A DNA stretch of 64,000 bases from contig NZ_RYYV01000005.1 of assembly GCF_003977665.1 (NCBI RefSeq), positions 62,001 through 126,000 on the forward strand. The letters run 5' to 3'. Positions 9,930-55,261 of the stretch are shown in pieces. The notes beneath the pieces were generated by a model. It did no database searches and was not told the DNA's origin. It saw nothing but the letters and a program-made list of their open reading frames with translations. Made by a program: the position numbers and the translations under genes. This DNA is from Dyella choica (GTDB lineage: Bacteria; Pseudomonadota; Gammaproteobacteria; Xanthomonadales; Rhodanobacteraceae). Position 1 is the first letter of the stretch. Each line of letters starts with the position of its first letter.

Positions 9930-12653
<2,724 letters not shown>

Positions 12654-12706: not shown

Positions 12707-12773
12707 GTAGGCTGGGATGAAATCCCAGCTTTCGTGCAGCCGGCAATGCTGGGATTTCATTCCAGCCTGCATT
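12707..12773. repeat. Intergenic double-hairpin repeat, copy 1
   Basis: Begins GTAGGCTGGGATGAAATCCC and ends in the matching reversed arm ATTCCAGCCTGC, with an inner pair of half-units meeting around CAGCCGGCAATG. It fills the space between the converging secA and apaH genes and reaches the apaH stop codon. Copy of a family found at least eight times in this window. Confidence 0.8.
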
Positions 12774-13672: not shown

Positions 13673-14056
13673 TCAGTGCAGCGTGCGGGGAATGGATAGC
13701 GTGAAGATCGGAATCGGCGCTTCGAAGCGCGTACCGTCGTCGGCCATCATCTGATAGCTGCCTTGCATCGTTCCGACCGCGGTTTCCAGTACCGCGCCGG
13801 AGGTGTATTCGAAATCGTCGCCCGGACGCATCCATGGCTGCTCGCCTACCACGCCCTCGCCGAACACCTCTTCGACTTTGCCGTTGGCATCCGTGATCAC
13901 CCAGTGGCGGGTCAGTAGCCGCGCGGATACGAAGCCTGCATTGTGCAGCCTGATCGTGTAGGCAAAGACGTAGCGGTTTTCATTGGGGGCGGACTGGTCA
14001 GGGACAAAACGGGTTTGCACCTGCACGTCGATCGTGTAGGGAGACTTGTCTTTCAT
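13673..14056 (-). CDS. apaG: Co2+/Mg2+ efflux-associated protein ApaG
   Basis: A 127-residue DUF525 protein of FnIII-like beta-sandwich fold, genetically linked to apaH and ksgA and associated with Co/Mg resistance in Salmonella; its biochemical role is unclear. The start at [15 protein letters not shown] is chosen because it gives the normal family length. The frame extends 16 codons upstream through the repeat at 14089-14160, which is not coding. Family motifs are [25 protein letters not shown] and MQGSYQMM. It lies 52 bases before apaH. Confidence 0.93.
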
Positions 14057-14088: not shown

Positions 14089-14160
14089 GTAGGTCGGGGT
14101 GCAAACCCCAACATCACCCTGCGCACATTATTCCGATGTTGGGTTTGCACTCCAACCTAC
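14089..14160. repeat. Intergenic double-hairpin repeat, copy 2
   Basis: GTAGGTCGGGGTGCAAACCCC at one end and GGGTTTGCACTCCAACCTAC at the other, each a short hairpin, facing one another. It fills almost the whole space between ksgA and apaG inside an operon. On the minus strand its terminal GTAGG provides the TAG stop of ksgA (14157-14159). Confidence 0.8.
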
Positions 14161-14954
14161 GGGGTATCCCGCAACTTGGCCAACGCCACGAAATCCATCG
14201 GCGCCAAGACCTCCGCCCGCGCCTTCGGATCGATCCCGGCTGCCCGGATGGTCTGGGCATCCATCAATTGCCGCAACGCATTGGAGAGTGTTTTGCGGCG
14301 CTGAGCAAAGGCTGCCTTCACGATCGCATATAGACGCGCTGGGTCGGCGTCATGGCGTGCCTCGGGCGGAAGCGGCGCCAGCCGCACGACCGACGAATCC
14401 ACCTTCGGCGGCGGCCGGAACGCGCCGGGAGGTACGTCGAACAGAGGCTCCACTCGGCAGGCCAGCTGCAACATCACGGATAGCCGTCCATACACCTTGC
14501 TGCCGGGCGCCGCCGCCATGCGATCGACCACTTCCTTCTGCAGCATGAAATGCATGTCGGTGATCGACGCCGCATGATCGATGCAATGAAACAGGATGGG
14601 GCTGGAAATGTAATAGGGTAGATTGCCGGCGATGCGCAGACGCTCCACCCCCGCCTGTCGCGCCATTGCGGTGAAATCCACCTTCAGAACGTCGGCATGC
14701 ACGATCGACAGCTCGCCAACGCCGTTTGCCTGTTCGCGCAGCCGCGGGATCAGGTCGGTATCCAGCTCGATCGCAGTGAGCTTGCCGGCGGCGCGCAGCA
14801 ACGGAAACGTCAGCGCACCTTCGCCAGGACCGATTTCGACCATGAAATCATCCTGGCGTGGCGAGATGGCGGCAACAATGCGCTCTATGTAGCGCCGTTC
14901 GTGCAGGAAGTGCTGGCCAAAACTCTTTTTGGGGCGGGCAGAGGTATTCATCAT
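14157..14954 (-). CDS. rsmA: 16S rRNA dimethyladenosine transferase
   Basis: KsgA/RsmA dimethylates two adjacent adenosines in the 3'-terminal hairpin of 16S rRNA late in 30S assembly. The 265 residues begin MMNTSARPKKSFGQHFLHE. The SAM-binding loop is EIGPGEGALT, and motif IV is NLPYYIS. The chosen ATG overlaps the pdxA stop (ATGA); the next codon is also ATG. Its stop codon TAG lies inside the flanking repeat element. Synonym ksgA. Gene order surA-pdxA-rsmA-apaG-apaH matches E. coli. Confidence 0.96.
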   Translation of the reverse strand: MMNTSARPKKSFGQHFLHERRYIERIVAAISPRQDDFMVEIGPGEGALTFPLLRAAGKLTAIELDTDLIPRLREQANGVGELSIVHADVLKVDFTAMARQAGVERLRIAGNLPYYISSPILFHCIDHAASITDMHFMLQKEVVDRMAAAPGSKVYGRLSVMLQLACRVEPLFDVPPGAFRPPPKVDSSVVRLAPLPPEARHDADPARLYAIVKAAFAQRRKTLSNALRQLMDAQTIRAAGIDPKARAEVLAPMDFVALAKLRDTP

Positions 14955-15943
14955 TTTTTGCTGCGGGCGGCCAGATCCAGTGCCATGTGCGCCGCTGCGA
15001 TCAAGCTGGATGGATCCGCCTTTCCAGTGCCGGCAAGGTCGAGCGCGGTGCCGTGATCGACGGACGTGCGAATGAAGGGCAGGCCGAGCGTGATGTTCAC
15101 CGTACGGTCGAACGCTTCGCTCTTGAGCACCGGCAAGGCCTGATCGTGATACATCGCCAACACGGCGTCATACCGGTGGCGCTGCGCGGGAACAAACGCG
15201 GTATCGGCCGGCAAGGGGCCCAGCAGCTGCATGCCTTCCTGGCGCAGCCTGTTCATCAGCGGAATGATCGTGTCGATCTCCTCGCGCCCGATATGTCCGC
15301 TTTCGCCGGCATGCGGATTGAGGCCGAGCACGGCGATGCGTGGTTCGCTGAAGCCGAATTTCGCGCGCAGCTCGTTGTGCACGATGCGCAACGTGCGCTC
15401 GAGCGACGCGGCTTCGATGGCGGCGGAAACTGCACGCAGCGGCAAATGGGTAGTGGCCAAGGCCACGCGCAGTTGGGGGCTGGCCAGCATCATCACGACG
15501 TCGGCGTGACTGTGCTCGGCGAAAAACTCGGTATGGCCGCTGAAACGAATGCCGGCGTCGTTGATCGAGGATTTCTGCAGGGGGGCCGTAACGACTGCAG
15601 CGTAGCGGCCACTCCGGCATCCATCCGCGGCCTCGGTCAGCGTGGCCAGCACGTGCCGGGCGTTGCGCGGATCGGGATGGCCAGGGAGTTCGGGTTCGAG
15701 TAGCGGAATATGCCTTACGCGCAGCGTGCCGGGCGGGCGCAGTTCGGGGCTTTCACCGTCATCGTCCAGCAAGCGGATGGCGACGCCACAGCGTTTCGCC
15801 GCGCGTTCAAGCAAGCCTCGATCGGTCAGCGCAATGAAATTGGCCGCCAGCGGGGTGGCGGCCAATCGGACCAGCAGCTCGGGACCGACACCGGCCGGCT
15901 CGCCGGCAGTCAGGGCGAGCCGCGGCAGCGCAAGACTGTTCAC
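14951..15943 (-). CDS. pdxA: 4-hydroxythreonine-4-phosphate dehydrogenase
   Basis: NAD-dependent enzyme of the deoxyxylulose-5-phosphate-dependent pyridoxal phosphate pathway. The 330-residue product opens with LALTAGEPAGVGPELL. The three divalent-metal histidines are in FSGHTEFFAEH, ATTHLPLRA and AMYHDQALPVLK, and NPHAGESGHIG is the family phosphate-binding segment. It starts 23 bases after surA and overlaps rsmA by four bases, consistent with one transcript. Confidence 0.96.
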   Translation of the reverse strand: MNSLALPRLALTAGEPAGVGPELLVRLAATPLAANFIALTDRGLLERAAKRCGVAIRLLDDDGESPELRPPGTLRVRHIPLLEPELPGHPDPRNARHVLATLTEAADGCRSGRYAAVVTAPLQKSSINDAGIRFSGHTEFFAEHSHADVVMMLASPQLRVALATTHLPLRAVSAAIEAASLERTLRIVHNELRAKFGFSEPRIAVLGLNPHAGESGHIGREEIDTIIPLMNRLRQEGMQLLGPLPADTAFVPAQRHRYDAVLAMYHDQALPVLKSEAFDRTVNITLGLPFIRTSVDHGTALDLAGTGKADPSSLIAAAHMALDLAARSKK

Positions 15944-15966
15944 CGCTTAGCCGTACTGCGTCGCCA

Positions 15967-17313
15967 TTACGACGCAGCCTTGCTATTGCCGGCAGCGGGC
16001 TCGTCCAGCTCCGGCACAAGAATCTTCACGTACGAACTGGAGCGCAGGTCGCGCAGGAAGTCGTCGTAAGCCTGGTCGGCCTTGCGGTTGCCAATGGCCT
16101 GGCGCGCCTGGTTGTGTGCAATCTCGGTGGTCATGTCGCTGTTGCGCGTGCCAAGGCGTTGCAGGATGTGCCAGCCGGCCTCGCTCTGGAAGGGTTGCGA
16201 GACCTCGTTGTCCTTCATGTCCGCCAGCTTCTGGCCGATCATTGCACCCCAGTCACCCTGCTGGAACCAGTTCATGTCACCGCCCGCGTTGGCCGTGGTG
16301 TCGTCATTGGAGTTGTCCTTCGCCAGCTTGGCGAAGTCCTCGTGCTTGTTGACGATGCGGCTGTAGAGATCCTGCGCCTTCTGCTGGGCCTGCGTCTGCG
16401 ACAGCAGTTCGCTGGGGCGGATCAGGATCTGGCGCGCATGGAACTCGGTCACCATCTGCTTGGCCTGGGCGCGCTGATCCACCAGCTGAAGGATGTGGAA
16501 GCCGGTTGGGCCATGCAGGATGCCGCTGGTTTCGCCGGGCTTCAGGCTACTGATGGTGTCGACGAAGGCCGGCGGCACTTCATCCACGCGGCGCCAGCCA
16601 AGATCACCGCCATCCAGTGCGTCCTGGGCGTCGGAGAAGCGGATGGCCGCCGCCTTGAACGGCATGCCGCCCTTGACCGCGGCCAGTGCCTGCTCGGCCT
16701 TGCTCTGAGCGGACTGGATGTCCGAGGCGGAGGCGCCGCCGGGGATGCTGACTTGAATGTGCGCCAGATGCACTTCACCCGCCTTGTAGGTGGGGCTGTT
16801 GAGCAAGTTGTTGATTTCGCTCTCGGTCACCGAGACCGAACTGCGCACCACGTTTTCATGCAGCTTCTGCACCACCAACTGGTCGTGCAATTGCTGGCGG
16901 TAGGCGGCGTAGCTCATGCCACTCTGTTCCACTGCGGCACGCAACTGCTCGGGCGCCATCTTGTTCTGCGCGGCCACGGCCTGCACGGCTTGGTCGACGT
17001 CGGCGTCGGACACACGGATGCCCTGGTCATCGGCGCGTTGCAACTGCAGCTTCATCAGGACCAGGCGATCGAGCACCTGCCGGCGCAGCACATCGATGGG
17101 AGGCAGTTGTCCAGGTTGGCTGGCGTACTGCTGCTGGATCGCGGCGACGGCGTCGTTCAGTTCGCTCTGCAGGATCACCTCGTCTTCGACGACGGCAACG
17201 ATGCGGTCGATCGGTCCGGAGCCCGAGTCCTGCGGCGCCAGGAACTGAGCCTGGGCCAGCGACGGGATCGCCGTGACGATCGTCAGCGCGAACAACGCAA
17301 AAATCTGCTTCAT
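15967..17313 (-). CDS. surA: Periplasmic chaperone and peptidyl-prolyl isomerase SurA
   Basis: Escorts outer-membrane proteins, including LptD, through the periplasm. The 448-residue product has a signal peptide (MKQIFALFALTIVTAIPSLAQA), a SurA N-terminal chaperone domain (about residues 30-150) and two parvulin domains. The first begins near AGEVHLAHIQVSIP and the second near EFHARQILIRPSE; the FHILQL and WHILQRLG segments close each domain. It lies 109 bases downstream of lptD, its major client. The ATG lacks a strong upstream ribosome site. Confidence 0.96.
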   Translation of the reverse strand: MKQIFALFALTIVTAIPSLAQAQFLAPQDSGSGPIDRIVAVVEDEVILQSELNDAVAAIQQQYASQPGQLPPIDVLRRQVLDRLVLMKLQLQRADDQGIRVSDADVDQAVQAVAAQNKMAPEQLRAAVEQSGMSYAAYRQQLHDQLVVQKLHENVVRSSVSVTESEINNLLNSPTYKAGEVHLAHIQVSIPGGASASDIQSAQSKAEQALAAVKGGMPFKAAAIRFSDAQDALDGGDLGWRRVDEVPPAFVDTISSLKPGETSGILHGPTGFHILQLVDQRAQAKQMVTEFHARQILIRPSELLSQTQAQQKAQDLYSRIVNKHEDFAKLAKDNSNDDTTANAGGDMNWFQQGDWGAMIGQKLADMKDNEVSQPFQSEAGWHILQRLGTRNSDMTTEIAHNQARQAIGNRKADQAYDDFLRDLRSSSYVKILVPELDEPAAGNSKAAS

Positions 17314-17422
17314 CAGTGAACAGCCTTCTGTCGCCGGTGGCGAAGGATTGGTAAACGATATGGCTCAAAAAGCGGCCGCGATGGCTGCTCTTTCGAGGGC
17401 GTCCGAACCTGCCTGGACGCGC

Positions 17423-20020
17423 TTATTGATAGCCAAGGATATCACGCCGCAGTACGCTCTCCGTCTGGCCGCTGAAGGCGCCTAGCCCCTTGAATTCCAA
17501 CTGGAACATGACGGCAGTGTCGCTCCCCGGCGGCTTCTGGCCCGGTGGCAGGCTGGCGATCACGCCGTAATAGCCGGTGACGTAATGGCGGGCCACCAGG
17601 GCCACCTTCACGCAACAGCCCTCGTACTGCACGCCAGCCAGGCCCTCCACCGTGCGCTTGTCCCTCATCGAGTAGGTCCACTCGCCGATCAGGCGCCAGC
17701 GTTCCGTGAGCGGATAGACCGTCGAGGCCTGATATTGTTCCAGCAGGCCGCGACGGAAGCGGTAGGAGAAGTTGAGGATGCCGTCGAAGCCCAGGCGGCG
17801 CTGCACCGTGAACGTGCCCAGGTCAGTCTGCCGGGTGTTCGGGTTCCACAGGTATTCGCTGCTGGCCGTCCACTGGTCGTCGAGTTGGGTGCTGAGTTCG
17901 ACGACGTAGTCTGAGCCGCGCCAATCCGTGGTGGCCTGGCAGCCATTGGGATTTTGGCGGGGCGTACCGTCGTAAACGGTACAGGGCGACTGCACCTTTT
18001 GGGGCGTGAAATAGTGAATCTGCCCGAACGTGGCTGACAGCCGCTCCACGCCACCGTCATCAAGCAGGCGCGTGGTGACGGCAGCGGTCAGGTTGTTCGC
18101 GTTCATCTGGCGGTCTGCGCCTGAAAACTGGTTCGGCGCAAACAGCATCCAGTCGTCGAACGCCATCGGCGCGGTATCGAACAACGGCAGGTTGTTCTGA
18201 TTGCGATACGGTACATACAGGTAGTACAGCCGCGGCTCCAGCGTTTGCGTGTAGTGCGTATCGAACAGCGAGGTGCTGCGTTCGAAGATCAGCCCCTGGT
18301 CCAGACTGAGGATCGGCAGCGCGCGGCTCGGATTGCTCTGTGTGAACGGTGAGAGTGACTTGGCTTTGGGGTCGGCAGGGAGGGGAAGCGCGCCGTAATA
18401 GCTGTAGCGCTGGTAGCCACTGTCAAGCGAATAGCCGGTATAGCGGTAGGCCAGCTTGGGCTTGATGAACCATGCCGCACCCCGGAAATCCGCGTCGACG
18501 TAGGGATACAGGTCGATACGTGAGCCTTCCACCTGGTCGAATTTGTGGAACTTCACCGCTTCGCTGGTCAGGCCAACGTCGTACCAGCGGGCGAACGGAA
18601 TATCCATGTTGAACGTGGCGCGCGGCAGGCGCTTGTAGGGTTCCACGCTGTTCGGTTGTGACGGATCCACGTTCTGGTAGATGTCGCCGCCCACCGAAGC
18701 GCTCCACCAGTTGCCGGCGCCGTTCAGATAGACGCTGGAATACAGCAGCGCGGTGGAGATGCTGAACAGGTCGTCGCCGAAGTCGCGCAGGTAGTTCCGG
18801 TCCGACGCGCGGTTGATGTTCGTGTTGAGCGACCAGCCCGGCCACAGGCTGGTCGTGTTGACGAAGCGGTACAGGTAGCGCTGCCGACCTTGTGTGTCGA
18901 TCGAGGTCGGGGTGAGCTTCTGGTCGTTGTAGTTGTCGTGGGGCAGGAATTCGAACTGGAACTGGCCGCTGGTGCGCGGGAACAGGTAGCGCACCTCGCC
19001 GGACAGCATCGCGCCGCGCCGGCTGTAGTAGCGCGGCGTGAGTGTGGCATCGTAGTTAGGCGCCAGGTTGAAGTAATACGGAATGCGGAACTGATAGCCG
19101 GCACGGCTGGTGTGCTCGAAGTACGGATACAGGAAGCCGCTCTGGCGATCGTTGTTGAGCGGGAACGACATCCACGGGAAATAGAAGAACGGCACCCCGT
19201 ACATGCTCATGGTGGCGCTGTGCGCCACGCCACGGCCGGTAGTGTCGTCGGTGTCGATCTCCCTGGCACGCAACTCCCAGATGTGGCCGCCGACGTCGCA
19301 GGTGGAATAGCTCGCCATGGTGTAGCGGTTGCGATCCGCGTCCAGCATTTCCGCGCGCAACGCGGTGCCGTTGCCGTGCGAATCAAGCAACTGGTAGCGC
19401 ACGTTGCCGCTCGCCAGCCCGGTGCTGTTGCCGGTATTGCCGGTGATATGGTCGGCCGACACCAAATGGGTGGCTTCCTGATAGTTCACGTTGCCGCGGG
19501 CATCGTAGTCGGTGGTATCGCTGTTGTAGTCTGCGACGTCCGCGTGCAGTTCCTGGTCGGCACGGACGGTTTTCACGTGGCCGTCCAGGTGATAGGTGAT
19601 CTGGTCCGGACTTTCCACATGGTCGGCCCATACTTGGGTGTTGGCCGAGGCGCGCAGGGCCGAATCCCTGCTCAGGAACGGATCGTAGAACTCCAGCATG
19701 CCGTTGGGTCTGCACAGCGCGAAGTTGTCTGGGCGGGGGGGGCAGATGAACTCGCCCAGGGGGCAGACCACCTCCGAGCCGTTCAGCGTGGCCTTGGGGT
19801 GTTTGGTCTGGGAAGAAGCATGGGCGCCCTGACTGCTGAACAGAGCAGCGGCAGCAGCGATTGCTAGCAGGCGGCGTGGAGGCAGAGAACGAGAGGGCAA
19901 CAGGCTCTTGGGCTTCACGGAGGCGATCAATCGGCGACGAAGGGGCGTTAAGCTATCAGAAAGGCCCTTCGTACGGCATCCGTCCCGGGCATGCTCTGAT
20001 CCATCCCTTGCCCTCGGCAT
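17423..20020 (-). CDS. lptD: LPS-assembly protein LptD
   Basis: Outer-membrane beta-barrel that, with LptE, inserts LPS into the outer leaflet. The protein has an N-terminal beta-jellyroll (OstA/LptA-like; TQVWADHVESPDQITYHLDG onward) and a large barrel domain. Cysteines fit the essential disulfide network: CPLG, FICPP and ALCRP near the mature N-terminus and an adjacent Cys pair in YEGCCVKVAL near the C-terminus. The start is uncertain. The ATG at 20020 gives 865 residues with a basic 45-residue N-extension. A GTG at 19918 (VKPKSLLPSRSLPPRR) would leave a normal signal peptide ending GAHAS. Confidence 0.93.
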   Translation of the reverse strand: MPRARDGSEHARDGCRTKGLSDSLTPLRRRLIASVKPKSLLPSRSLPPRRLLAIAAAAALFSSQGAHASSQTKHPKATLNGSEVVCPLGEFICPPRPDNFALCRPNGMLEFYDPFLSRDSALRASANTQVWADHVESPDQITYHLDGHVKTVRADQELHADVADYNSDTTDYDARGNVNYQEATHLVSADHITGNTGNSTGLASGNVRYQLLDSHGNGTALRAEMLDADRNRYTMASYSTCDVGGHIWELRAREIDTDDTTGRGVAHSATMSMYGVPFFYFPWMSFPLNNDRQSGFLYPYFEHTSRAGYQFRIPYYFNLAPNYDATLTPRYYSRRGAMLSGEVRYLFPRTSGQFQFEFLPHDNYNDQKLTPTSIDTQGRQRYLYRFVNTTSLWPGWSLNTNINRASDRNYLRDFGDDLFSISTALLYSSVYLNGAGNWWSASVGGDIYQNVDPSQPNSVEPYKRLPRATFNMDIPFARWYDVGLTSEAVKFHKFDQVEGSRIDLYPYVDADFRGAAWFIKPKLAYRYTGYSLDSGYQRYSYYGALPLPADPKAKSLSPFTQSNPSRALPILSLDQGLIFERSTSLFDTHYTQTLEPRLYYLYVPYRNQNNLPLFDTAPMAFDDWMLFAPNQFSGADRQMNANNLTAAVTTRLLDDGGVERLSATFGQIHYFTPQKVQSPCTVYDGTPRQNPNGCQATTDWRGSDYVVELSTQLDDQWTASSEYLWNPNTRQTDLGTFTVQRRLGFDGILNFSYRFRRGLLEQYQASTVYPLTERWRLIGEWTYSMRDKRTVEGLAGVQYEGCCVKVALVARHYVTGYYGVIASLPPGQKPPGSDTAVMFQLEFKGLGAFSGQTESVLRRDILGYQ

Positions 20021-20164
20021 TCATTCCAGTAGGCCTGCAGGGCGTGTCGGGTGGCGCAAGGCAGGTGGTCGTCTGGACTGCTGCGGGCGCAGCCCGTCAG
20101 ACTCGCATACAGTTCGGCCGCAAGCGTGCAGTGACGGGTACCAGGAATAGATCTCGGAGCGCGA

Positions 20165-20581
20165 ATGAATCAGCACAAACCCCAAAAGACCGACGAAGAA
20201 TGGCGCGCCAGCCTGGATCCGGCGCAGTACGCGGTGTGCCGCTGCTCGGCCACCGAGCCGCCCTTCAGTGGCAAGTGGTACAAGCACAAGGAGGCGGGAA
20301 CCTACCTGTGCGTGGCATGCCACGCGCCGTTGTTTGCCTCCGAAGCCAAATACGATTCCGGCTCCGGCTGGCCGAGCTTCTTCCAGCCGATCAAGCGCGA
20401 GACGGTCAACCTGGTGCCGGACGAGAGCCACGGCATGCATCGTACGGAGGTGCGATGCGCGGTATGCGACTCCCATCTGGGACATGTTTTTCCGGACGGA
20501 CCCAAGCCGACCGGCTTACGTTACTGCGTCAACTCGGTGGCCCTGGATTTTGCGCCCGACCCCCATTCCCTTGCGCCGTAG
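20165..20581 (+). CDS. msrB: Peptide-methionine (R)-S-oxide reductase MsrB
   Basis: Reduces methionine-R-sulfoxide residues in proteins. The 138-residue length is typical of stand-alone MsrB. Zinc-binding CxxC pairs are CVAC and CAVC. The substrate motif is [11 protein letters not shown], and the catalytic cysteine sits in [11 protein letters not shown]. An additional CRC lies near the N-terminus. There is no signal peptide, so it is cytoplasmic. It diverges from lptD with a 144-base intergenic region. Its stop codon TAG is the start of a repeat element. Confidence 0.96.
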
Positions 20582-20652
20582 GCTGGGTTGGGAAACCCAG
20601 CATCGCCATGCATGCAATGCCCCGCGATGCTGGGATTGGCATCCCAGCCTAC
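20578..20652. repeat. Intergenic double-hairpin repeat, copy 3
   Basis: Seventy-five bases with arms GTAGGCTGGG and CCCAGCCTAC. Each half is itself a hairpin (GGCTGGGTTGGGAAACCCAG and GCTGGGATTGGCATCCCAGC), and the inner halves share GCATCGC/GCGATGC. It lies between the converging msrB and the deacetylase-family gene. The TAG at 20579-20581 terminates msrB. Confidence 0.85.
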
Positions 20653-20656
20653 AGGC

Positions 20657-21577
20657 CTAATTCATCAGCGCACTTACATGCGCGCCCACGCTGGCTGCCA
20701 GTGCCTGCAGGTCGTAGCCGCCCTCCAGGGTGGAAACCAGCCTGCCACCCGCGTGCGCATGGGCCAGGTCGACCAGCCGCTCGGTAATCCACGCGTAGTC
20801 CTCGGTCTGCAGTTGCAGATTCGCCAGCGGGTCGCGCTGATGCGCATCGAAGCCGGCCGACACCAGCACGAGCTGAGGCTTGAAGTCATGCAGCTTGGGC
20901 AGTAGCACGTCGTTCCACAACGCGCGGAACTCCTCGGAACCCTCGCCGGATGACAAGGGCGCATTGACGATATTGCCCACGCCCCGTTCCTCCGGGCTGC
21001 CGGTGCCCGGATACAGCGGCTGCTGGTGCGAAGAAATGAACAGCACCCGCGGCTCACGCTGAAAAATATCTTGCGTGCCGTTGCCGTGATGCACGTCGAA
21101 ATCGGCGATCGCCACCCTCTTCAGGCCATGCGCAGCCAGTGCGTGCGCAGCACCTATGGCGACATTGTTGAAAAGGCAGAAGCCCATCGCGGCATCGGGG
21201 GTGGCATGGTGGCCGGGAGGGCGCACCGCACAGAAGGCGTGCGTAGTGTTCCCCGACATCACGGCATCCACCGCGGCGACCAGGGCACCGGCAGCGCGCA
21301 AGGCGGCCTCGGCCGAGGCCGGCGACATCAAGGTGTCCTCGTCGAGCCGCACGGCTTCCGAGTCGGGCGTGATGGCCAGGATGCGATCCACATGCTCCGG
21401 GGTATGCACCCGCAGCAGATGTTCACGGGAAGCCCGCGGCGCTTCGATGCGATCCACGCTGGCGTAGCGGTCCTGATCCAATGCCTGCAATACCGCGCGC
21501 AGACGGGCGGGGGACTCAGGATGGCCCGCGCCAGGATCGTGCTGCAGGCATACGGGGTGGGTAAACAGCTGCAGCAT
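20657..21577 (-). CDS. Histone-deacetylase-family zinc amidohydrolase
   Basis: Member of the arginase/deacetylase fold (class II-like HDAC, acetoin-utilisation AcuC and acetylpolyamine amidohydrolase relatives). About 306 residues. Active-site elements are all present: RPPGHHA with the tandem histidines, the zinc motif DFDVHHGNGT, SAGFDAHQRDP with the second aspartate, and LEGGYD. The true substrate (acetyl-lysine, acetylpolyamine or another amide) cannot be told. The start at MLQLFTHP matches family N-termini; an ATG at 21610 (MSVAASQQ) has a better ribosome site (GAGGTG) and would overlap the adenosyltransferase gene. Co-directional and nearly contiguous with the two upstream genes. Confidence 0.88.
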   Translation of the reverse strand: MLQLFTHPVCLQHDPGAGHPESPARLRAVLQALDQDRYASVDRIEAPRASREHLLRVHTPEHVDRILAITPDSEAVRLDEDTLMSPASAEAALRAAGALVAAVDAVMSGNTTHAFCAVRPPGHHATPDAAMGFCLFNNVAIGAAHALAAHGLKRVAIADFDVHHGNGTQDIFQREPRVLFISSHQQPLYPGTGSPEERGVGNIVNAPLSSGEGSEEFRALWNDVLLPKLHDFKPQLVLVSAGFDAHQRDPLANLQLQTEDYAWITERLVDLAHAHAGGRLVSTLEGGYDLQALAASVGAHVSALMN

Positions 21578-21581
21578 GCTT

Positions 21582-22148
21582 TCAGCCTGCTGGCTTGCGG
21601 CGACGCTCATGCTGCCAGAGCACCTCGCCATGGCCGCTCGCACGGGCCAACACGCGGCACAGTACGAATAGCAGGTCGGATAGCCGATTGAGATAGCGCT
21701 GCGCCTGCGGCCGCACGCTTTCCACGCGTCCCAACGCGATCACTTCACGCTCCGCTCGCCGACACACGGTGCGCGCAAGATGGCAGCAGGAGGCGGCCAT
21801 GCCGCCGCCCGGCAGGATGAAATCCTTCAGCGGCGGCAGCGGTTCGTTGAACCGGTCCAGGACCTGCTCGAGGCGATCGATGTCCGCGTCCTCGATCATC
21901 GCCATGCCAGGAATACACAGCTCGCCGCCAAGATCGAACAGCTCGTGCTGCACCTGGGTGAGCGTTTCTTGCACTTCAGCGTCGAGTCCGACGCAGGCCA
22001 GCACCATGCCGATCGTACTGTTGAGTTCGTCAACCGTACCGTACGCATTGACCCGCGCGGAATCTTTCGGCACGCGTGATCCGTCGCCCAGGCCGGTGCT
22101 ACCGTCGTCACCCGTGCGCGTATAGATTTTCGAGAGCCGGTTGCCCAC
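21582..22148 (-). CDS. Cob(I)alamin adenosyltransferase (PduO type)
   Basis: Transfers the adenosyl group of ATP to cob(I)alamin to make coenzyme B12. The 188-residue protein shows the PduO-type hallmarks: IYTRTGDDGSTGLGDGSRVPK (ATP-binding N-terminus), AYGTVDELNS, the ELCIPG segment, and the helical RTVCRRAEREV and YLNRLSDLLFVLCR motifs with the conserved Arg/Asn residues. It starts with GTG three bases after the stop of the BtuM-like gene, so the two are almost certainly co-transcribed. This indicates use of scavenged B12, since no cobalamin-synthesis genes appear here. Confidence 0.92.
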   Translation of the reverse strand: MGNRLSKIYTRTGDDGSTGLGDGSRVPKDSARVNAYGTVDELNSTIGMVLACVGLDAEVQETLTQVQHELFDLGGELCIPGMAMIEDADIDRLEQVLDRFNEPLPPLKDFILPGGGMAASCCHLARTVCRRAEREVIALGRVESVRPQAQRYLNRLSDLLFVLCRVLARASGHGEVLWQHERRRKPAG

Positions 22149-22151
22149 GGC

Positions 22152-22751
22152 TTAGTGCTGCGTCTGGCCGCTGTGCTGGGATACTCGGGCCAGTTGTACT
22201 GCCAGCACGTGCAGCACAGCACCAAGCGCCACGTACGCCGCGGTAGTCTGCAGGAAAGGCAGGTACCAGTGGCCCAGGTTTTCGAACCAGGCCGCGAAAC
22301 TCTTCGGCGCTGCCACGTGCGCGCTCAACCAGTAGAAGCTGCCGTTGGAGATCACATAGCACGCGTTCTCGCTCACTAGCAGTGCAGCTGCGGCCATGCC
22401 CAGCGTGGTGAGTTTGATGCCGTGCTGGTGCTTGGCTAGCCAGCTGCCGCCGATCCACAGCGAGCCGTAGGCGGGAACCAGGAACCAGTAGCCGGCGGAT
22501 ACGCAGTAGTGTTCCCAAAAATTGGTGCCAGAGAGCGTGATGACCACGTAGTCGACCAGCACCGCCTCGGCCATCAGCAGCGGAAACGCCCAGCGGCCGG
22601 TGCCGCGCAGCCAGAAGCCGGCCAGGAAGAACACGCCCCACGACGCGTCCCAGATATCGTGGTGGAACAGTGACAAATGCACGCGGGTCACCGCCAAACC
22701 TAAGGCGAGCGCGGCGAAGATGCCAAGGCGCTGGGTCGATGTCGTAGCCAT
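22152..22751 (-). CDS. btuM: BtuM-like vitamin B12 transporter (solitary ECF S-component type)
   Basis: A 199-residue, six-segment hydrophobic membrane protein. It carries WDASWGVFFLAGFWLRG in the second hydrophobic segment and NFWEHYCVSAGYWFLVPAYG, with Cys83 near the position of the cobalt-coordinating cysteine (Cys80) reported for Thiobacillus denitrificans BtuM. Such proteins import cobalamin without a dedicated ECF module. The adenosyltransferase gene three bases downstream supports a B12-salvage role. The ribosome site AGGGAGTTCTTC precedes the ATG. I looked for a cobalamin riboswitch in the 187 bases upstream and saw no B12 box. Identification rests on recalled family motifs and context, not alignment. 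Confidence 0.72.
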   Translation of the reverse strand: MATTSTQRLGIFAALALGLAVTRVHLSLFHHDIWDASWGVFFLAGFWLRGTGRWAFPLLMAEAVLVDYVVITLSGTNFWEHYCVSAGYWFLVPAYGSLWIGGSWLAKHQHGIKLTTLGMAAAALLVSENACYVISNGSFYWLSAHVAAPKSFAAWFENLGHWYLPFLQTTAAYVALGAVLHVLAVQLARVSQHSGQTQH

Positions 22752-22938
22752 GAAGAACTCCCTAGGAAAGCAGGCGGCTCATATGAGAGGGTGCGAAGAC
22801 TGCGCAGTTTAGCCCAATGCGGACCTACTTATGGGGGGGCTGTGGTCCCTCGGGTACCCGTCACCGCGGCGTCCCGACGCCGGGATTGCCATCCCTGCCT
22901 GCGCGCAGTCAGATGCTTACACCGCGTATCATCCGCGC

Positions 22939-24165
22939 ATGACTATCTCTCCCCCTTTTGTCCCCGCAGGCAACGTGCTGGTGGTCGGTGGCGGCCTGGT
23001 CGGCGCCAGCCTGGCGATCGCGCTGGATGCAGCCGGGTGCCGCGTCACCCTGGTCGAAGCCGCCGCGCCGCGCGCCGATGCGCAGCCCAGCTATGACGAA
23101 CGGAATCTGGCGTTGGCCCGTGCCACCGTGAATGGGCTTAAGGCAATCAGCGTGTGGCCGCTCGCTGCCGCGCAAGCAACGCCGATCCATCGAATCCACG
23201 TCAGCCGCGCAGGCGAATTCGGCAGCGCGCGGCTGGACGCAGCCAGACATGGCGTCGATGCGCTGGGTTGGACCTTGCCGGCGCGCGAACTGGGCGCCGC
23301 CCTGCTGCGCCGGCTGGATGCTTGCCAGCGCCTGGTGCGCCTGGCGCCAGCCAGCCTCACCGGTCTTACTCGCCATGCCGATGGCTGGCGGGCGCAGATC
23401 AAGACGCCTGATGGGGAGCAGCACGTTGACGCTGCCTTGCTGGTCGGTGCGGACGGCACCGACTCGTTCGTGCGCGCGCAGCTTGGCATCCAGGCCGATG
23501 TGCACGATTACCAGCAGACCTTGTTCGTATGCACGGTCACTCCGGAGCGCGATCCGGCGAACCGTGCCTGGGAGCGCTTTTCCGATGAAGGCCCGATCGC
23601 CATGCTGCCGCTGGCGGAGCGCCGCTGCGGACTGGTGCTTACCGTTGATTCGGACGTGGCCGCCACCGTGTCGACCTTGAACGACGCCGATTTCATCGCA
23701 CTGGCGCAGCGCCGTTTCGGCTGGCACCTGGGGCGCTTGAACCGACCTGGCAAACGTCATCCCTACGCCATCAAGCGGGTCGCTGCCCGCGGCCTGATCG
23801 CATCGCGAGCCGTGCTCGTAGGCAATGCCGCTCAGACCGTGCATCCGATCGGTGCGCAGGGCTTCAATTTGGGATTGCGCGATGCGCTGACCCTGGCCGA
23901 GCTGGTCGCCGGGGCGGCAGACCCCGGATCGTCCGAACTGCTGGAGCGCTATGCCGCGCGCCGTGCGCCGGATCGCCAAGGCACCATGGCCATGAGCCAC
24001 GACCTGGTGCGCTTTGCCTGCATGCCGGAGCCATGGCTGGCTCCGTTCCGCTCGCTTGCCCTGCTTGCATACGACCGCGTGCCGCCGTTGCAACAAGCAC
24101 TGGCTCGGCGTGGCATGGGATTTCGCGGCGAGCCGCCGCGTGCCGTGTTGGAGCGACTGCCGTGA
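22939..24165 (+). CDS. ubiH: UbiH-family FAD-dependent ubiquinone hydroxylase
   Basis: Class A flavoprotein monooxygenase adding an oxygen to the ubiquinone ring; UbiH acts at C4 in E. coli. The 408-residue product starts at MTISPPFVPAGNV; earlier frame is non-homologous. FAD motifs: VVGGGLVGASLAIAL (GxGxxG), LVGADGTDSFVRAQLG (DG motif) and LVGNAAQTVHPIGAQGFNLG, the second FAD/ribityl motif (usual GDAAH is GNAAQ here). It overlaps the next paralogue by GTGA. Which of UbiH, UbiI or UbiF each copy is cannot be fixed without a tree. Confidence 0.85.
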   Translation: MTISPPFVPAGNVLVVGGGLVGASLAIALDAAGCRVTLVEAAAPRADAQPSYDERNLALARATVNGLKAISVWPLAAAQATPIHRIHVSRAGEFGSARLDAARHGVDALGWTLPARELGAALLRRLDACQRLVRLAPASLTGLTRHADGWRAQIKTPDGEQHVDAALLVGADGTDSFVRAQLGIQADVHDYQQTLFVCTVTPERDPANRAWERFSDEGPIAMLPLAERRCGLVLTVDSDVAATVSTLNDADFIALAQRRFGWHLGRLNRPGKRHPYAIKRVAARGLIASRAVLVGNAAQTVHPIGAQGFNLGLRDALTLAELVAGAADPGSSELLERYAARRAPDRQGTMAMSHDLVRFACMPEPWLAPFRSLALLAYDRVPPLQQALARRGMGFRGEPPRAVLERLP

Positions 24166-25364
24166 GAACGATTCCTGCAACACAGCGTCGCGCACCAGCC
24201 CTGGATGTCGCCGTAGTCGGCGGTGGCATGGTTGGGGCTGCCGCAGCACTGGCATTGAGTCGTGCCGGCTTCAGCACCGCACTGCTGGAAGCGCGCGAGC
24301 CGGCGGCCTGGCATCCGCAGGATGACGTGGATCTGCGCGTGGTCGGGCTGGCGCCTTCATCGATCAAACTGCTGGATGAGCTGGGCGTCTGGACATCCAT
24401 ACGCGATGCACGTGCCTGTCCTTATGCGCATATGCACGTTTGGGATGCGCAGAACGGTGCGGCCATCGATTTCGATGCCGCCGACGAGGGGCGCAGTGAG
24501 CTTGGCTATATCGTCGAAAACAACCTGGTGCAGTGGGAGCTGTGGCAGGCGCTGGATGCGGCCGGCGTGCAGCGCTTGTGCCCGGTGGCGGTGAAGGATT
24601 TCGAAACACGCGCGGATCGGGTTGTGCTCGAGTTGGCCGATGGTGAAAGCGTGTCAGTACGATTGCTGGTTGCTGCCGATGGCGGCAATTCACCCCTGCG
24701 CGTACGGGCCGGCATCGCGACGAGCGGCAGGGATTATTCGCAGCGCGCGGTAGTGGCGCACGTCAACACCGAACGCCCGCATGGGCATGCTTGCTGGCAG
24801 CGTTTCCTTCCGTCCGGGCCGCTCGCTTTGCTGCCGCTTGCCGATGGGCGCAGTTCCATCGTGTGGTCGCTACCGGAAGGCGAGGCACGACGCGTACTGT
24901 CGCTGGAGGATGAGGCCTTTATCAAGGAGCTTGGCGTCGCCAGCGATTTCCGCCTTGGACGCGTCACGGCCACCACCCGGCGCGTGGCTTTTCCGCTCAA
25001 GCTGCAGCTCGCCAGTGCCTATCATGCTGAGCGTTTCGCGTTGCTTGGCGATGCGGCCCATGTCGTACACCCGTTGGCCGGGCAGGGCGTAAATCTGGGT
25101 TTGCGTGACGTCGCCGAACTGCGCGACGTGCTGGCCGCTGCACGCGACGAAGGACGCGATTTTTCTTCCCCGCAAGTGCTTCATCGTTACGCACGCCGCC
25201 GCCGTAGCGCGGATATGCTCGATGCGTATGGCTTCGATGCACTCGCTCGCGTTTATGCGTGGCAGAGCGCACCATGGGTAGCGGCACGCGGGGTGGGCGT
25301 GCGCCTGGTTGACCGTTTGCTGCCACTCAAGCGACGCCTGGCGGCGCATGCAGCAGGACTGTAG
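24162..25364 (+). CDS. ubiI: UbiI/VisC-type ubiquinone hydroxylase
   Basis: Second FAD-dependent hydroxylase of the UbiH/F/I family, 400 residues, probably acting at C5. It starts with GTG overlapping the ubiH stop (GTGA); the longer frame upstream lies inside ubiH. Motifs are DVAVVGGGMVGAAAALAL, LVAADGGNSPLRVRAGI and the canonical LLGDAAHVVHPLAGQGVNLGLRD. The pair ubiH-ubiI is a common gammaproteobacterial arrangement, and ispB for the polyprenyl tail lies 0.9 kb downstream. The stop TAG is supplied by a repeat element. Confidence 0.85.
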   Translation: MRTIPATQRRAPALDVAVVGGGMVGAAAALALSRAGFSTALLEAREPAAWHPQDDVDLRVVGLAPSSIKLLDELGVWTSIRDARACPYAHMHVWDAQNGAAIDFDAADEGRSELGYIVENNLVQWELWQALDAAGVQRLCPVAVKDFETRADRVVLELADGESVSVRLLVAADGGNSPLRVRAGIATSGRDYSQRAVVAHVNTERPHGHACWQRFLPSGPLALLPLADGRSSIVWSLPEGEARRVLSLEDEAFIKELGVASDFRLGRVTATTRRVAFPLKLQLASAYHAERFALLGDAAHVVHPLAGQGVNLGLRDVAELRDVLAAARDEGRDFSSPQVLHRYARRRRSADMLDAYGFDALARVYAWQSAPWVAARGVGVRLVDRLLPLKRRLAAHAAGL

Positions 25365-25430
25365 GCTGAGGGCAACCCTCAGCATCGCAATGTACGTGCA
25401 CGGCAGAGTTGGGGTGTGCATCCCAGCCTG
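25361..25430. repeat. Intergenic double-hairpin repeat, copy 4
   Basis: Starts GTAGGCTGAGGGCAACCCTC and ends GTGTGCATCCCAGCCTG, with a less regular centre than other copies. It sits between ubiI and the dienelactone-hydrolase-like gene, and the TAG at 25362-25364 ends ubiI. Confidence 0.75.
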
Positions 25431-25461
25431 GGAACTCTCCCTCCTGCAAAGGAAGCCACCT

Positions 25462-34566: not shown

Positions 34567-35021
34567 GGGTGACACTCCTGTTCGGCAACGAATGGGAAGC
34601 AGTGACCGGATGCAACAACCGCTTTTTGGAATGGATGCAGAGATGAACGGCGCAAACCTGGGGTAGCGTCGAAGTGCCTTTCCCAGAGGAACGGCCAGCT
34701 GATGCGCTGTTAGGTAAAAAAGAGCGGTTCCAAGTCGGGAAACGATACGACGGGGATCAAGGGAGCTCAAGGGGAGGCCCTGCGGTTTCCGTTCCTTGCG
34801 AGATATCTCATTGAAAAACTGACGCTTGTCTTGTGCGGAGATCCCCAATCCGAGGCCGTGATGATGGGGCGAGCACCGTTGAGATGATCGTCAGGCAAAG
34901 CGTCGGCTGGGATGACAATCCCAGCATCGCACGCCCTGCTGTACGGCCATGCTGGGTTTTGCAACCCAGCCTACGCTTCGCCAAATGCACACGCAGGGTG
35001 GTGACGAGTACGTGGAATAGA
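34567..35021. other. 455-base gap with one repeat copy
   Basis: Contains the promoter region of the caspase-like gene, no convincing coding frame, the perfect palindrome GAGATATCTC at 34800-34809, and one copy of the intergenic repeat near its right end. An AT-rich stretch (TTAGGTAAAAAAGAGCGG near 34710) may be part of the promoter. No mobile-element gene is seen. Confidence 0.5.
34902..34974. repeat. Intergenic double-hairpin repeat, copy 5
   Basis: GTCGGCTGGGATGACAATCCC at one end and GGGTTTTGCAACCCAGCCTAC at the other, with GCATCGC and CATGC near the centre. It lies downstream of the HCCA-isomerase-like gene. One end has GTCGG in place of GTAGG. Confidence 0.75.
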
Positions 35022-37667: not shown

Positions 37668-38867
37668 CTAATCCTCGCGAATGCGATACATGGCCGTCGC
37701 GTGCGCCGCCAATTGCAGCTTCAGCGTGTCTGCGCCTTTGACTTGCGAATGTGCCCAAAGATCACGCAGGGTGTGGCTGGTGCGCGGCGCCAGGCCGATC
37801 ACGGTAGTGGCGATGGAGACATCGCGCGGCGTGTCGTTTTCGTTGAACACCGCCACTGCGCGGCCGCCATCCTGGAGCGGCTTGACGATCACGTGAATGC
37901 CGTCGACATCACGCACCTGCCTGCCCTGGATACCTAGCGGATCCTGGTCTACCGCGATCACTTCCTGGTTGAGCAGGATCTTGAGCGTGTCCGGCTTGAC
38001 CGTGCGCAAGTCGGTACCGATCAACAGCGGTGCGGCCATGATCGACCACAGGCTGAAATGACTGCGGTATTCGGTGTCGGTCATGCCGCCGTTGCCCACT
38101 TCCAGTATGCCCGGATCGTTGTAGTGCCCGGGCGTGGCATAGCGATCCAGAACTACGTTCTGCTTGAAATTTTCCAGCATCGAGGTGTATGCATCGCTGA
38201 TGTCATCCGTAGTGCGCCATGAGTCGGCGTTGACGGGCAGCTTGCCGGCCCACGTCCAAGGCTGGTTTTCGCCCCTTTCGCACACACTGTAGATGATCGG
38301 GCGTGCGGCGCCACGCAGCGCCTGGCCCATCGCTGTGTAGCGCTGCTGGGCATCAATATCCAAATGGTTGCAGTTGTCGTACTTGAGGTAGTCCACACCC
38401 CATGACGCAAAGGTGGTGGCATCGCGCTTCTCGTGATCGAGGCTGCCGGGAAAGCCTCCGTTCTCCCGCGGCGGTTCGCAGGTAAAGGTGCCGGCGCTGG
38501 AGTACAGGCCGAACTTCAGTCCACGTTGGTGGATGTAATCGGCCAGCGCCCGGATGCCGCTTGGGAAGCGTTTGGGATTGGCTTCGAGGTCGCCTTGTTT
38601 GTCTCGCCGCCCGTTGGCCCAGCAGTCGTCGATATTGATGTAGGTATAGCCAGCATCGCGCAGTCCCAAGCTGATGAACTTGTCGGCGATGTCGCGCATC
38701 GTCGTTTCATTGAATTCATCGCCGCACTGGGTGGCGTTGCGGTTGTTGAAGCCCATCTGCGGCACGAGAGGCTGGGCGCTGGGGGTGGAGGTGCCGTAGA
38801 CGGCGGAGGCAATGGAAAATGCGAGGAAAGCGGCGATGCGCCGCGAGCAGGCACGGGAAGCAATCAT
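37668..38867 (-). CDS. GH27 alpha-galactosidase, copy A (tryptophans altered)
   Basis: Secreted GH27 retaining enzyme expected to remove alpha-1,6-galactose. 399 residues with a signal peptide (about 1-25). Nucleophile Asp164 in YLKYDNCN and acid/base Asp222 in SWRTTDDI are both present, as are NIDDCW and KFGLYSSAG. Compared with its tandem paralogue it has Arg43 in place of Trp (GFNNRN), Gly86 in place of Trp, and Arg198 in place of Trp in the normally conserved CEWG segment, so substrate binding may differ or be impaired. Start follows GGAGAGAATTCG. It is last in the TonB-GH35-GH27-GH27 run. Confidence 0.9.
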   Translation of the reverse strand: MIASRACSRRIAAFLAFSIASAVYGTSTPSAQPLVPQMGFNNRNATQCGDEFNETTMRDIADKFISLGLRDAGYTYINIDDCWANGRRDKQGDLEANPKRFPSGIRALADYIHQRGLKFGLYSSAGTFTCEPPRENGGFPGSLDHEKRDATTFASWGVDYLKYDNCNHLDIDAQQRYTAMGQALRGAARPIIYSVCERGENQPWTWAGKLPVNADSWRTTDDISDAYTSMLENFKQNVVLDRYATPGHYNDPGILEVGNGGMTDTEYRSHFSLWSIMAAPLLIGTDLRTVKPDTLKILLNQEVIAVDQDPLGIQGRQVRDVDGIHVIVKPLQDGGRAVAVFNENDTPRDVSIATTVIGLAPRTSHTLRDLWAHSQVKGADTLKLQLAAHATAMYRIRED

Positions 38868-39026
38868 CGAATTCTCTCCACTGAAAAATGGGAAGCACGA
38901 TCGAACGCTTGGCGTGCAAAGTTTAGGCTGGCCTATGCGCACAACAGCCGGAGCCACTGGTAGAACTTTCTTTCAAGAAATTACAAAAGTTTCCGGATGT
39001 AAGACGGAAGGCCGTTTGAACATTGC

Positions 39027-39078: not shown

Positions 39079-40278
39079 TCAAAGACGGCTGATGCGATAG
39101 ATGGCCGTCTCATGCGCTTGCAGGTGTACCTTCAGCGTGCCGTCGCCCTTGGCTTGGGTATGCGCCCACAGATCGCGCACGTTGTAGCTGCTTCTCGCCG
39201 TCAGCCCGGTTTCGGCGTCGGAAACGGCGACATCGCGCTGGGTATCATTTTCGTTGAACACCGCCACTGCGCGACTGCCGTCATTGAGCGGCTTGACGAG
39301 CACGTGGATGCCATCGGAATCGCGCACCTGTTTGCCCTGCACGCCCATCGGATCCTGATCCACCGCGATTACTTCCTTGTTGAGCAGGATTTTCAGTGCA
39401 TCCGGTTTGATCTTGCGCAGATCGGTACCGATCAGCAATGGTGCGGCCATGATCGACCATAGGCTGAAGTGACTGCGGTATTCCGTGTCGCTCATTCCGC
39501 CGTTGCCCACTTCGAGCATGTCGGGGTCGTTGTAGTGGCCGGGTGTGGCGTACCGGTCCAGCACCACGTTCTGCTTGAAGTTCTTCAACATCGAGGCGTA
39601 GCTATCGCTGATGTCGCCGGTGGAGCGCCACGAACCGGCGTCGACCGGCGGCTTGCCGGCCCAGGTCCAAGGTTTGTTCTCGCCCCATTCGCAGACGCTG
39701 AAGAAGATCGGCCGAGCGGTGGCGCGGAGGGCTTCGGCCATCGCTGTGTAGCGTTGAATGGCGTCGACTTTCTGGTTGTTGCAGTTGTCGTACTTCAGAT
39801 AGTCCACGTTCCATGCTGCAATGGTCGCGGCGTCCTGCTTTTCATGCCCTAGGCCGCCCGGAAACCCTCGGTTTTCCTGCAGCGGTTCACAGGTGGAGGT
39901 GCCGGCGCTGGAATACAGGCCGAATTTCAGGCCGTGCTGATGGATGTAATCCGCCAGTGCCTTGATACCGGCAGGGAATCGTTTGGGGTTGGGCTGAAGG
40001 TTTTCGTTCTTGTCGCGTTGCCAGTTGGCCCAGCAATCGTCGATATTGACGTAGGTATAGCCGGCATCGCGCAGTCCAAGGCTGATGAACTTGTCGGCGA
40101 TGCCGCGGATCATGGTTTCGTTGAATTCATCGCGGCAGTGGGTGGAATTCCAGTTATTGAAACCCATTTGCGGAGGTGCCGCTTGCACATCGGATGCAGC
40201 GGCGCCGCCCACGGCGACGGCCGCAACGAACGCGACGGCAGCGGTGGTGTGCCGCAGGCATGCAGGGGAAGCCTTCAT
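39079..40278 (-). CDS. GH27 alpha-galactosidase, copy B
   Basis: 399 residues, same length and alignable without gaps over the positions checked to copy A. Signal peptide MKASPACLRHTTAAVAFVAAVAVGGAAA. It keeps canonical GH27 residues: GFNNWN, NIDDCWANW, nucleophile Asp164 in YLKYDNCN, CEWGENKPW and acid/base Asp222 in SWRSTGDI. Upstream leaders of both copies share GCGTTCGATC at a similar distance before the ATG, so the duplication included regulatory sequence. It lies 45 bases downstream of the GH35 gene and is expected to act in the periplasm or outside the cell. Confidence 0.93.
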   Translation of the reverse strand: MKASPACLRHTTAAVAFVAAVAVGGAAASDVQAAPPQMGFNNWNSTHCRDEFNETMIRGIADKFISLGLRDAGYTYVNIDDCWANWQRDKNENLQPNPKRFPAGIKALADYIHQHGLKFGLYSSAGTSTCEPLQENRGFPGGLGHEKQDAATIAAWNVDYLKYDNCNNQKVDAIQRYTAMAEALRATARPIFFSVCEWGENKPWTWAGKPPVDAGSWRSTGDISDSYASMLKNFKQNVVLDRYATPGHYNDPDMLEVGNGGMSDTEYRSHFSLWSIMAAPLLIGTDLRKIKPDALKILLNKEVIAVDQDPMGVQGKQVRDSDGIHVLVKPLNDGSRAVAVFNENDTQRDVAVSDAETGLTARSSYNVRDLWAHTQAKGDGTLKVHLQAHETAIYRISRL

Positions 40279-54814: not shown

Positions 54815-55261
54815 ATGAAGCCCCCCGCCCTGCGCCCCATTCTGCTGGTTGAAGACAGTCCGGTCGACGCCGAGATGACGCTGGACGCGTTGCGCCAGGC
54901 CCACCTGGCCAATCCGGTGATACATCTGGAGGATGGCGTGGATTGCCTCGACTGGTTGTACGCGCGCGGTGGCTTCGCGGGCCGGGAAGAGGAGGAGCCG
55001 GTCGTCATGCTGCTGGATATCAAGATGCCGCGCTTGAACGGACTGGACGTGCTCACGCAGATGCGTGCGGACGAACGTTTCCGCCATATTCCGGTGGTGA
55101 TCCTGTCCTCGTCGCGCGAGGAGAGCGATCTGGCGCGCAGCTGGGATCTCGGAGTAAACGCTTACGTCATCAAGCCGGTGGACGTACAGCAGTTTTTCCT
55201 GGCGGTACGTACGCTCGGCCAGTTCTGGGCGGTGCTGAATCAGGCGCCGGAGCCAGGGTAA
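54815..55261 (+). CDS. CheY-like single-domain response regulator (Rcp1 type)
   Basis: 148 residues consisting of one receiver domain. LLVEDSPVDAEMT gives the acidic pocket, Asp68 in VMLLDIKMPRLNG the phosphorylation site, VVILSSSREESD the Thr/Ser switch, and VNAYVIKPVD the conserved Lys. No output domain, so it probably acts by protein contact or as a phosphorelay intermediate. Rcp1-type regulators usually sit next to phytochrome-type kinases, as here. A repeat element follows before the hybrid kinase. Confidence 0.92.
   Translation: MKPPALRPILLVEDSPVDAEMTLDALRQAHLANPVIHLEDGVDCLDWLYARGGFAGREEEEPVVMLLDIKMPRLNGLDVLTQMRADERFRHIPVVILSSSREESDLARSWDLGVNAYVIKPVDVQQFFLAVRTLGQFWAVLNQAPEPG

Follow-up and report, generated by a model that had tools for sequence, protein, structure and literature searches.

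REP elements and genes in the window

In the window, the whole 64,000-nucleotide stretch of Dyella choica DNA that was analysed, three genes terminate at a TAG that is at the same time the TAG within the terminal GTAGG of a GTAG-type REP, as the initial annotation had reported with correct coordinates in all three cases. These are ksgA (rsmA), msrB and a hydroxylase gene named ubiI in that annotation; the last was placed in the UbiH/UbiF family, the exact name ubiI being unconfirmed by profile search. The genes and the REP pairs are listed below, where d is measured from the T of a stop codon to that of the TAG in the REP, both on one strand.

12707 to 12770: REP pair of the same family as those at ksgA, msrB and ubiI, off any stop codon
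14089 to 14160: REP pair in inverted arrangement, with ksgA on one side and the called gene 13673-14056 on the other, GTAG outward at both ends; RNA fold of 14093-14159, -30.7 kcal/mol, z -4.2
14157 to 14954, minus strand: ksgA (rsmA), stop codon TAG at 14157-14159 on the REP end; TIGR00755, 279 bits
20165 to 20581, plus strand: msrB, stop codon TAG at 20579-20581 on the REP end; TIGR00357, 186 bits
20578 to 20652: inverted REP pair, the left GTAG of which is the msrB stop; RNA fold -47.2 kcal/mol, z -6.0
24033 to 25364, plus strand: UbiH/UbiF-family hydroxylase ('ubiI'), stop codon TAG at 25362-25364 on the REP end; TIGR01988, 428 bits
25361 to 25430: degenerate REP pair, GTAGGCTGAGGGCAACCCTCAGC on the gene side and the second copy decayed (tag CAGA); RNA fold of 25361-25432, z -2.1
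34902 to 34974: REP pair of the same family as those at ksgA, msrB and ubiI, off any stop codon
55276 to 55348: further REP pair of this family, following the TAA of 54815-55261 at d = 18; RNA fold z -6.1

The repeat had been counted at eight copies in the window; at the score cut used here the number was 15 REP units at nine loci, comprising six pairs and three singles, with a low-scoring copy included at three of the loci (25365, 52734 and 59479). The right GTAG of the msrB pair (20652-20659) follows the TAG of a convergent ORF (20657-21643) at d = 8. Elsewhere in the window, two segments that are 78% alike (37681-37980 and 39092-39391) lie within neighbouring ORFs that are close to each other in length (37668-38957 and 39079-40278).

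The family was characterized in 851 kb of the D. choica genome (787 kb plus the window), in which 749 genes were called; gene calls and REP calls in Dyella were both made with our own scripts rather than taken from curated annotation. REP cores were scored without the GTAG tag, yielding 211 units, and shuffled sequence gave ∼17 units (17.3) per 567 kb, or 2 at a stricter cut, so that ∼26 of the 211 may be noise. The consensus is GTAG-GCTGGGAT-loop-ATCCCAGC-ATCG, and copies are frequently paired in inverted orientation, so that a GTAG points outward from each end. Although the tag played no part in detection, it was present on 139 of the 211 units, and a 5' GTAG is thus combined with a short stem-loop. 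Inverted pairs with outward tags made up 68 of 127 elements and are the common unit, as in REPINs and BIMEs. The repeat is also extragenic and present in many copies: 189 of the 211 units lay mostly outside called genes, 87 of the 211 sat 0-30 nt behind a stop codon, and two strict patterns matched 622 and 670 times genome-wide with no match to the reversed control, a count in which a palindrome can match on both strands.

A REP-associated tyrosine transposase (RAYT) presumably drives the spread of these REPs. One Y1 transposase gene was found in the genome (PF01797, 42.6 bits; NF047646 REP_Tyr_transpos, 52.5 bits, below the cut-off of 80), with a REP pair ∼0.3 kb upstream and none recognized by eye in the 0.2 kb downstream. 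G012 gave 18 Y1 transposase matches and just 45 matches to the Dyella REP pattern. At G000:C1:233586, 304115 and several other sites a left half such as GTAGGCTGGGATGACAATC runs straight into a full REP, which gives the appearance of one REP nested by insertion in another. Another repeat, of ∼120 nt, occurs at L046:6104-6229 and 11595-11722 and has dozens of matches in G005, G002 and G010.

The tag, the hairpin and the pairing of the repeat are shared with known systems. The GTAG-tagged REPs of prokaryotes described in PMC3733652 likewise have a 5' GTAG, a short palindrome, high copy number, inverted pairs and positions shortly after stop codons. In Pseudomonas fluorescens (PMC3116915) the REPINs are likewise inverted REP pairs, there linked to RAYT genes, but are described as random in extragenic space, and the phrase 'stop codon' is absent from the portion of that account compared here. 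The ends of IS200/IS605 elements similarly combine a hairpin with a 5' tetranucleotide guide, which is GTAG in REPs (PMC6006769).

Coincidence of the REP tag with stop codons

That the overlap with stop codons exceeds chance was borne out when the check was run on the 851 kb. The TAG of a REP fell exactly on a called stop codon in 23 of the 211 units (19 of 181 at the stricter score cut), two of the 23 being partial copies ahead of a second REP. Shuffled placement in intergenic sequence and the last 60 nt of genes gave a mean of 0.45 overlaps and a maximum of 4 in 2000 shuffles, and 0.09 overlaps were expected from placement anywhere in the sequence. By distance, 23 units lay at d = 0, 64 were spread over d = 1-30 (2.13 per position) and 3 were found from d = -60 to -1. 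The peak at d = 0 recurred in two congeners, with 8 of 57 units in G005 and 11 of 54 in G010; pooling the three genomes, in which insertions shared between relatives enter more than once, gave 42 units at d = 0, 105 over d = 1-30 and 3 from d = -60 to -1. A further 400 kb of G010, for which an extra rule for other REP types was applied, contained nine genes with the overlap at d = 0, and 23 in which the REP lay at d = 1-30. In at least one of these nine the tag has changed to GTAA and the stop reads TAA, while the hairpin is kept. The peak at an exact position, set against 0.45 overlaps on shuffling, indicates that the overlap is real and exact.

E. coli REP/BIME elements are also GTAG-tagged and lie near stop codons. 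In 600 kb of E. coli K-12, none of 228 loose REP matches (81 with GTAG) fell on a stop codon and 28 were within 30 nt of one; TAG was the stop codon of 29 of 514 called genes in the same 600 kb.

It has been reported since 2013 that neighbouring ORFs often take their TAG stop from the GTAG termini of REPs (PMC3733652). In the passages compared, that account gives no chance expectation, does not raise the question of which came first, the TAG or the repeat, and does not name Dyella. As far as our searches show, the new element is that the TAG often appears to be the older of the two: no statement that TAG predates the REP was found in the literature searched, most subscription papers being outside its reach, and the search found no paper on REPs in Dyella.

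Where a REP followed the stop at 1-15 nt, the gene ended in TAG in 15 of 40 cases, compared with 49 of 287 controls. One REP cluster (G000:C1:304115-304203) carries the TAG stops of both convergent neighbours. Both convergent orthologues in G005 end in TAG, with no REP detected at the stop.

Age of the TAG in REP-free orthologues

Orthologues of 19 of the 23 overlapped genes were present in stretches from up to five congeners; two of the 19 had no REP-free relative, leaving 17 testable genes. TAG was the stop codon in at least one REP-free congener for 14 of the 17, at the same codon in ten and at another length only in four. The corresponding figures were 15 of 68 for genes with no REP (P 7e-6) and 10 of 14 for TAG genes with no REP. 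For the other three of the 17, every REP-free relative ended in TGA or TAA, and these genes look to have been converted by the REP. Counted as orthologue pairs, 24 of 55 REP-free pairs ended in TAG, where 17.9 would be expected if these stops were conserved like ordinary TAG stops and 2.3 if they were conserved like those of TGA/TAA genes; the excess was significant by gene-level permutation (P 0.0018). These data suggest that the repeat has in many cases settled on an old stop codon, given that REP-free relatives so often end in the same TAG. The proposal that the repeat creates 3' ends retains a clear fit in three of the 17 genes.

For the three genes of the window, the initial annotation had the repeat supplying the stop codon. 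This is not supported: an identical TAG lacking the repeat, the outcome that the annotation itself had named as refuting, was found at the same codon for two of them. The ubiI TAG is present at the same codon without a REP in G005, G002 and G009, and in G010 another REP type lies on the TAG. For msrB, the same codon is a TAG free of any overlapping REP in G005 (where a REP lies 13 nt further on), G010 and G009. The case of ksgA is less direct: REP-free orthologues in G002 and G014 end in TAG at other C-terminal lengths, the genes in G010 and G009 end in TAA or TGA, and in G005, the closest relative, the gene has its TAG at an unchanged length and a degenerate REP follows after 8 nt.

The fraction of REP-free orthologues ending in TAG was 7/9 in G005, 3/13 in G010, 4/13 in G002, 8/17 in G014 and 2/3 in G009, counts which exclude relatives with REP-like or ambiguous sequence at the stop; a slightly different filter gave 6/8, 3/13, 3/12, 8/17 and 1/2, respectively. 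With each genome tested alone, the TAG excess was significant for D. choica itself, G005, G002 and G014, and was not significant for G010 (5/19 vs 9/73) or G009. G014 provided the cleanest reference, having 6 strict REP matches compared with 670 and no Y1 transposase match. Over the summed sets, of which the no-REP sets partly share genes and the set with a REP nearby keeps one REP-like row, the G014 orthologue ended in TAG for 12 of 27 overlapped genes, 22 of 170 with no REP (P 0.0003) and 7 of 44 whose stop has a REP at a distance of 1-40 nt (P 0.01). In a predeclared test, four of seven overlapped genes of G010 had TAG in G014, compared with 8 of 71 genes without a REP (P 0.009); the first of two companion tests found TAG in D. 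choica for four of five overlapped genes of G010, compared with 10 of 63 (P 0.005).

Other points count against an older TAG. In the second companion test, the overlapped genes between 330 and 567 kb of C1 in D. choica had TAG in none of three orthologues in G014 and none of two in G010. In addition, the TAG of a REP-free species could be the scar of an older REP.

It is possible, though we hold it to be rather less than an even prospect, that no causal link exists and that weakly constrained genes both use more TAG and tolerate REPs at their 3' ends. TAG use climbed with falling coding score (24, 17 and 12% by tertile) and the overlapped genes were low-scoring, their median codon bias being 0.318 compared with 0.498 for other REP-flanked genes (P 0.001). 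This weaker bias fits tolerance of the repeat better than benefit from it. A REP at 1-40 nt behind the stop also went with more TAG in the relatives of a gene (22 of 85 pairs; 15 of 28 genes); matched by score to the genes of this class, overlapped genes were not distinct (0.41 vs 0.34, P 0.21), and the gene-level contrast between the two classes was weak (P 0.049 for any TAG, 0.17 for TAG at the same position). However, gene class alone cannot give the exact register, with 23 units at d = 0 against about two per position behind it, and the excess survived score matching to genes with no REP (0.41 vs 0.14, P 0.0004), as it did the contrast in G014 between overlapped genes and those with a REP 1-40 nt away.

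Junctions and the origin of the register

All 42 pooled overlaps read GTAG, whereas the REP-free orthologues ending in TAG had G before the TAG in 7 of 21 cases. The G therefore either came with the repeat or was selected, and the mismatch indicates that the junction is no plain insertion behind GTAG. The base before GTAG was C in 62% of units at d = 0 and in 69% of other REPs, so the repeat has a part in shaping the final codon. Few clean junctions were obtained from the 19 rows of the empty-site search, too few for a target rule. The cleanest empty site (el27, off any called stop) has no GTAG, and GTAG therefore seems to travel with the element. In the few readable rows the flanks behind the stop look replaced rather than simply interrupted.

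Two simple schemes were rejected on these grounds. Insertion behind a pre-existing GTAG disagrees with el27 and with the orthologues, and slippage involving an old TAG and the TAG of a REP close by predicts some ATAG, CTAG or TTAG junctions, none of which is present among the 42.

It is unlikely, though worth weighing, that REPs are guided to existing TAG codons, amber stops being preferred since the GTAG of the element would pair with, or be exchanged for, the TAG of the target. Such guidance would have different REP types settling independently on the same stops across species. Different REP sequence types were found on one stop at ubiI (D. choica and G010) and at the gene C2:16516 (D. choica and G002), an observation that counts in favour of a REP landing on a TAG already present. 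Insertion of IS200/IS605 elements follows a flanking target tetranucleotide (PMC6006769); in contrast, the el27 empty site lacks GTAG. A share of the TAG excess is found also in genes with a REP just downstream and in weakly codon-biased genes.

We are equally doubtful that the repeat generally creates the stop, by random insertion in or near gene ends after which an in-frame TAG is kept as a clean terminator. Random insertion would meet TAG, TGA and open frames alike; the pooled REPs at gene ends were in the TAG frame in 42 cases, the TGA frame in one and an open, read-through frame in two, which makes random insertion into gene ends unlikely. Protein lengths bear on the same point. Among the 55 REP-free orthologue comparisons of the first set the D. 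choica protein matched its relative in length in 31 cases, exceeded it in 15 and fell short in 9, and is thus not systematically shorter; in a later set, overlapped genes of G010 were one codon shorter than in G014 in five of seven cases and equal in two. Truncation beyond a codon or two is therefore not the rule, and truncation in a random frame was judged unlikely from the frame counts and length offsets despite the five shorter genes of G010. Creation of the stop by the repeat does agree with those five genes, with the three genes whose REP-free relatives all end in TGA or TAA, with the C before GTAG being as frequent at stops as at other REPs, and with the cluster at C1:304115-304203, which ends both convergent genes at lengths differing by a codon from their relatives. 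Against it stand the TAG in a REP-free relative for 14 of 17 genes and the E. coli K-12 matches, of which 28 approach a stop codon and none coincides with one.

That selection favours a combined stop and hairpin, ending translation and stabilizing the message, as the initial annotation also suggested, is improbable: the three REP pairs fold well as RNA (z -4.2, -6.0 and -2.1), but genes of weak codon bias have the overlap more often, REPs that lie no more than 15 nt from a stop in E. coli are described as stalling ribosomes and lowering translation (PMC12306157, 2025, citing earlier work), and one gene of G010 retains the hairpin where the tag at the stop reads TAA.

On balance we lean, by a little over an even chance, towards a REP TAG that lands in register on a TAG which the gene often already had, a minority of genes having been converted from TGA or TAA. 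Under this reading the TAG would have come first in the focal lineage, and the repeat would then have replaced a few tens of bases behind the existing amber stop. A REP whose GTAG lay over the existing TAG would be a harmless product, with the protein end the same or shifted by a codon or two, and in the minority a TGA or TAA end would have been turned to TAG by the repeat. The outcome is a hairpin set directly against the stop codon, chiefly in genes of weak codon bias.

To our knowledge, the choice of sites by REPs is poorly known. That a repeat supplies a stop codon should not be read from a single genome. If old TAG stops are landing sites, they would provide a testable rule for where REP hairpins settle, and a reason why REPs can fill the 3' ends of genes without harm to the protein.
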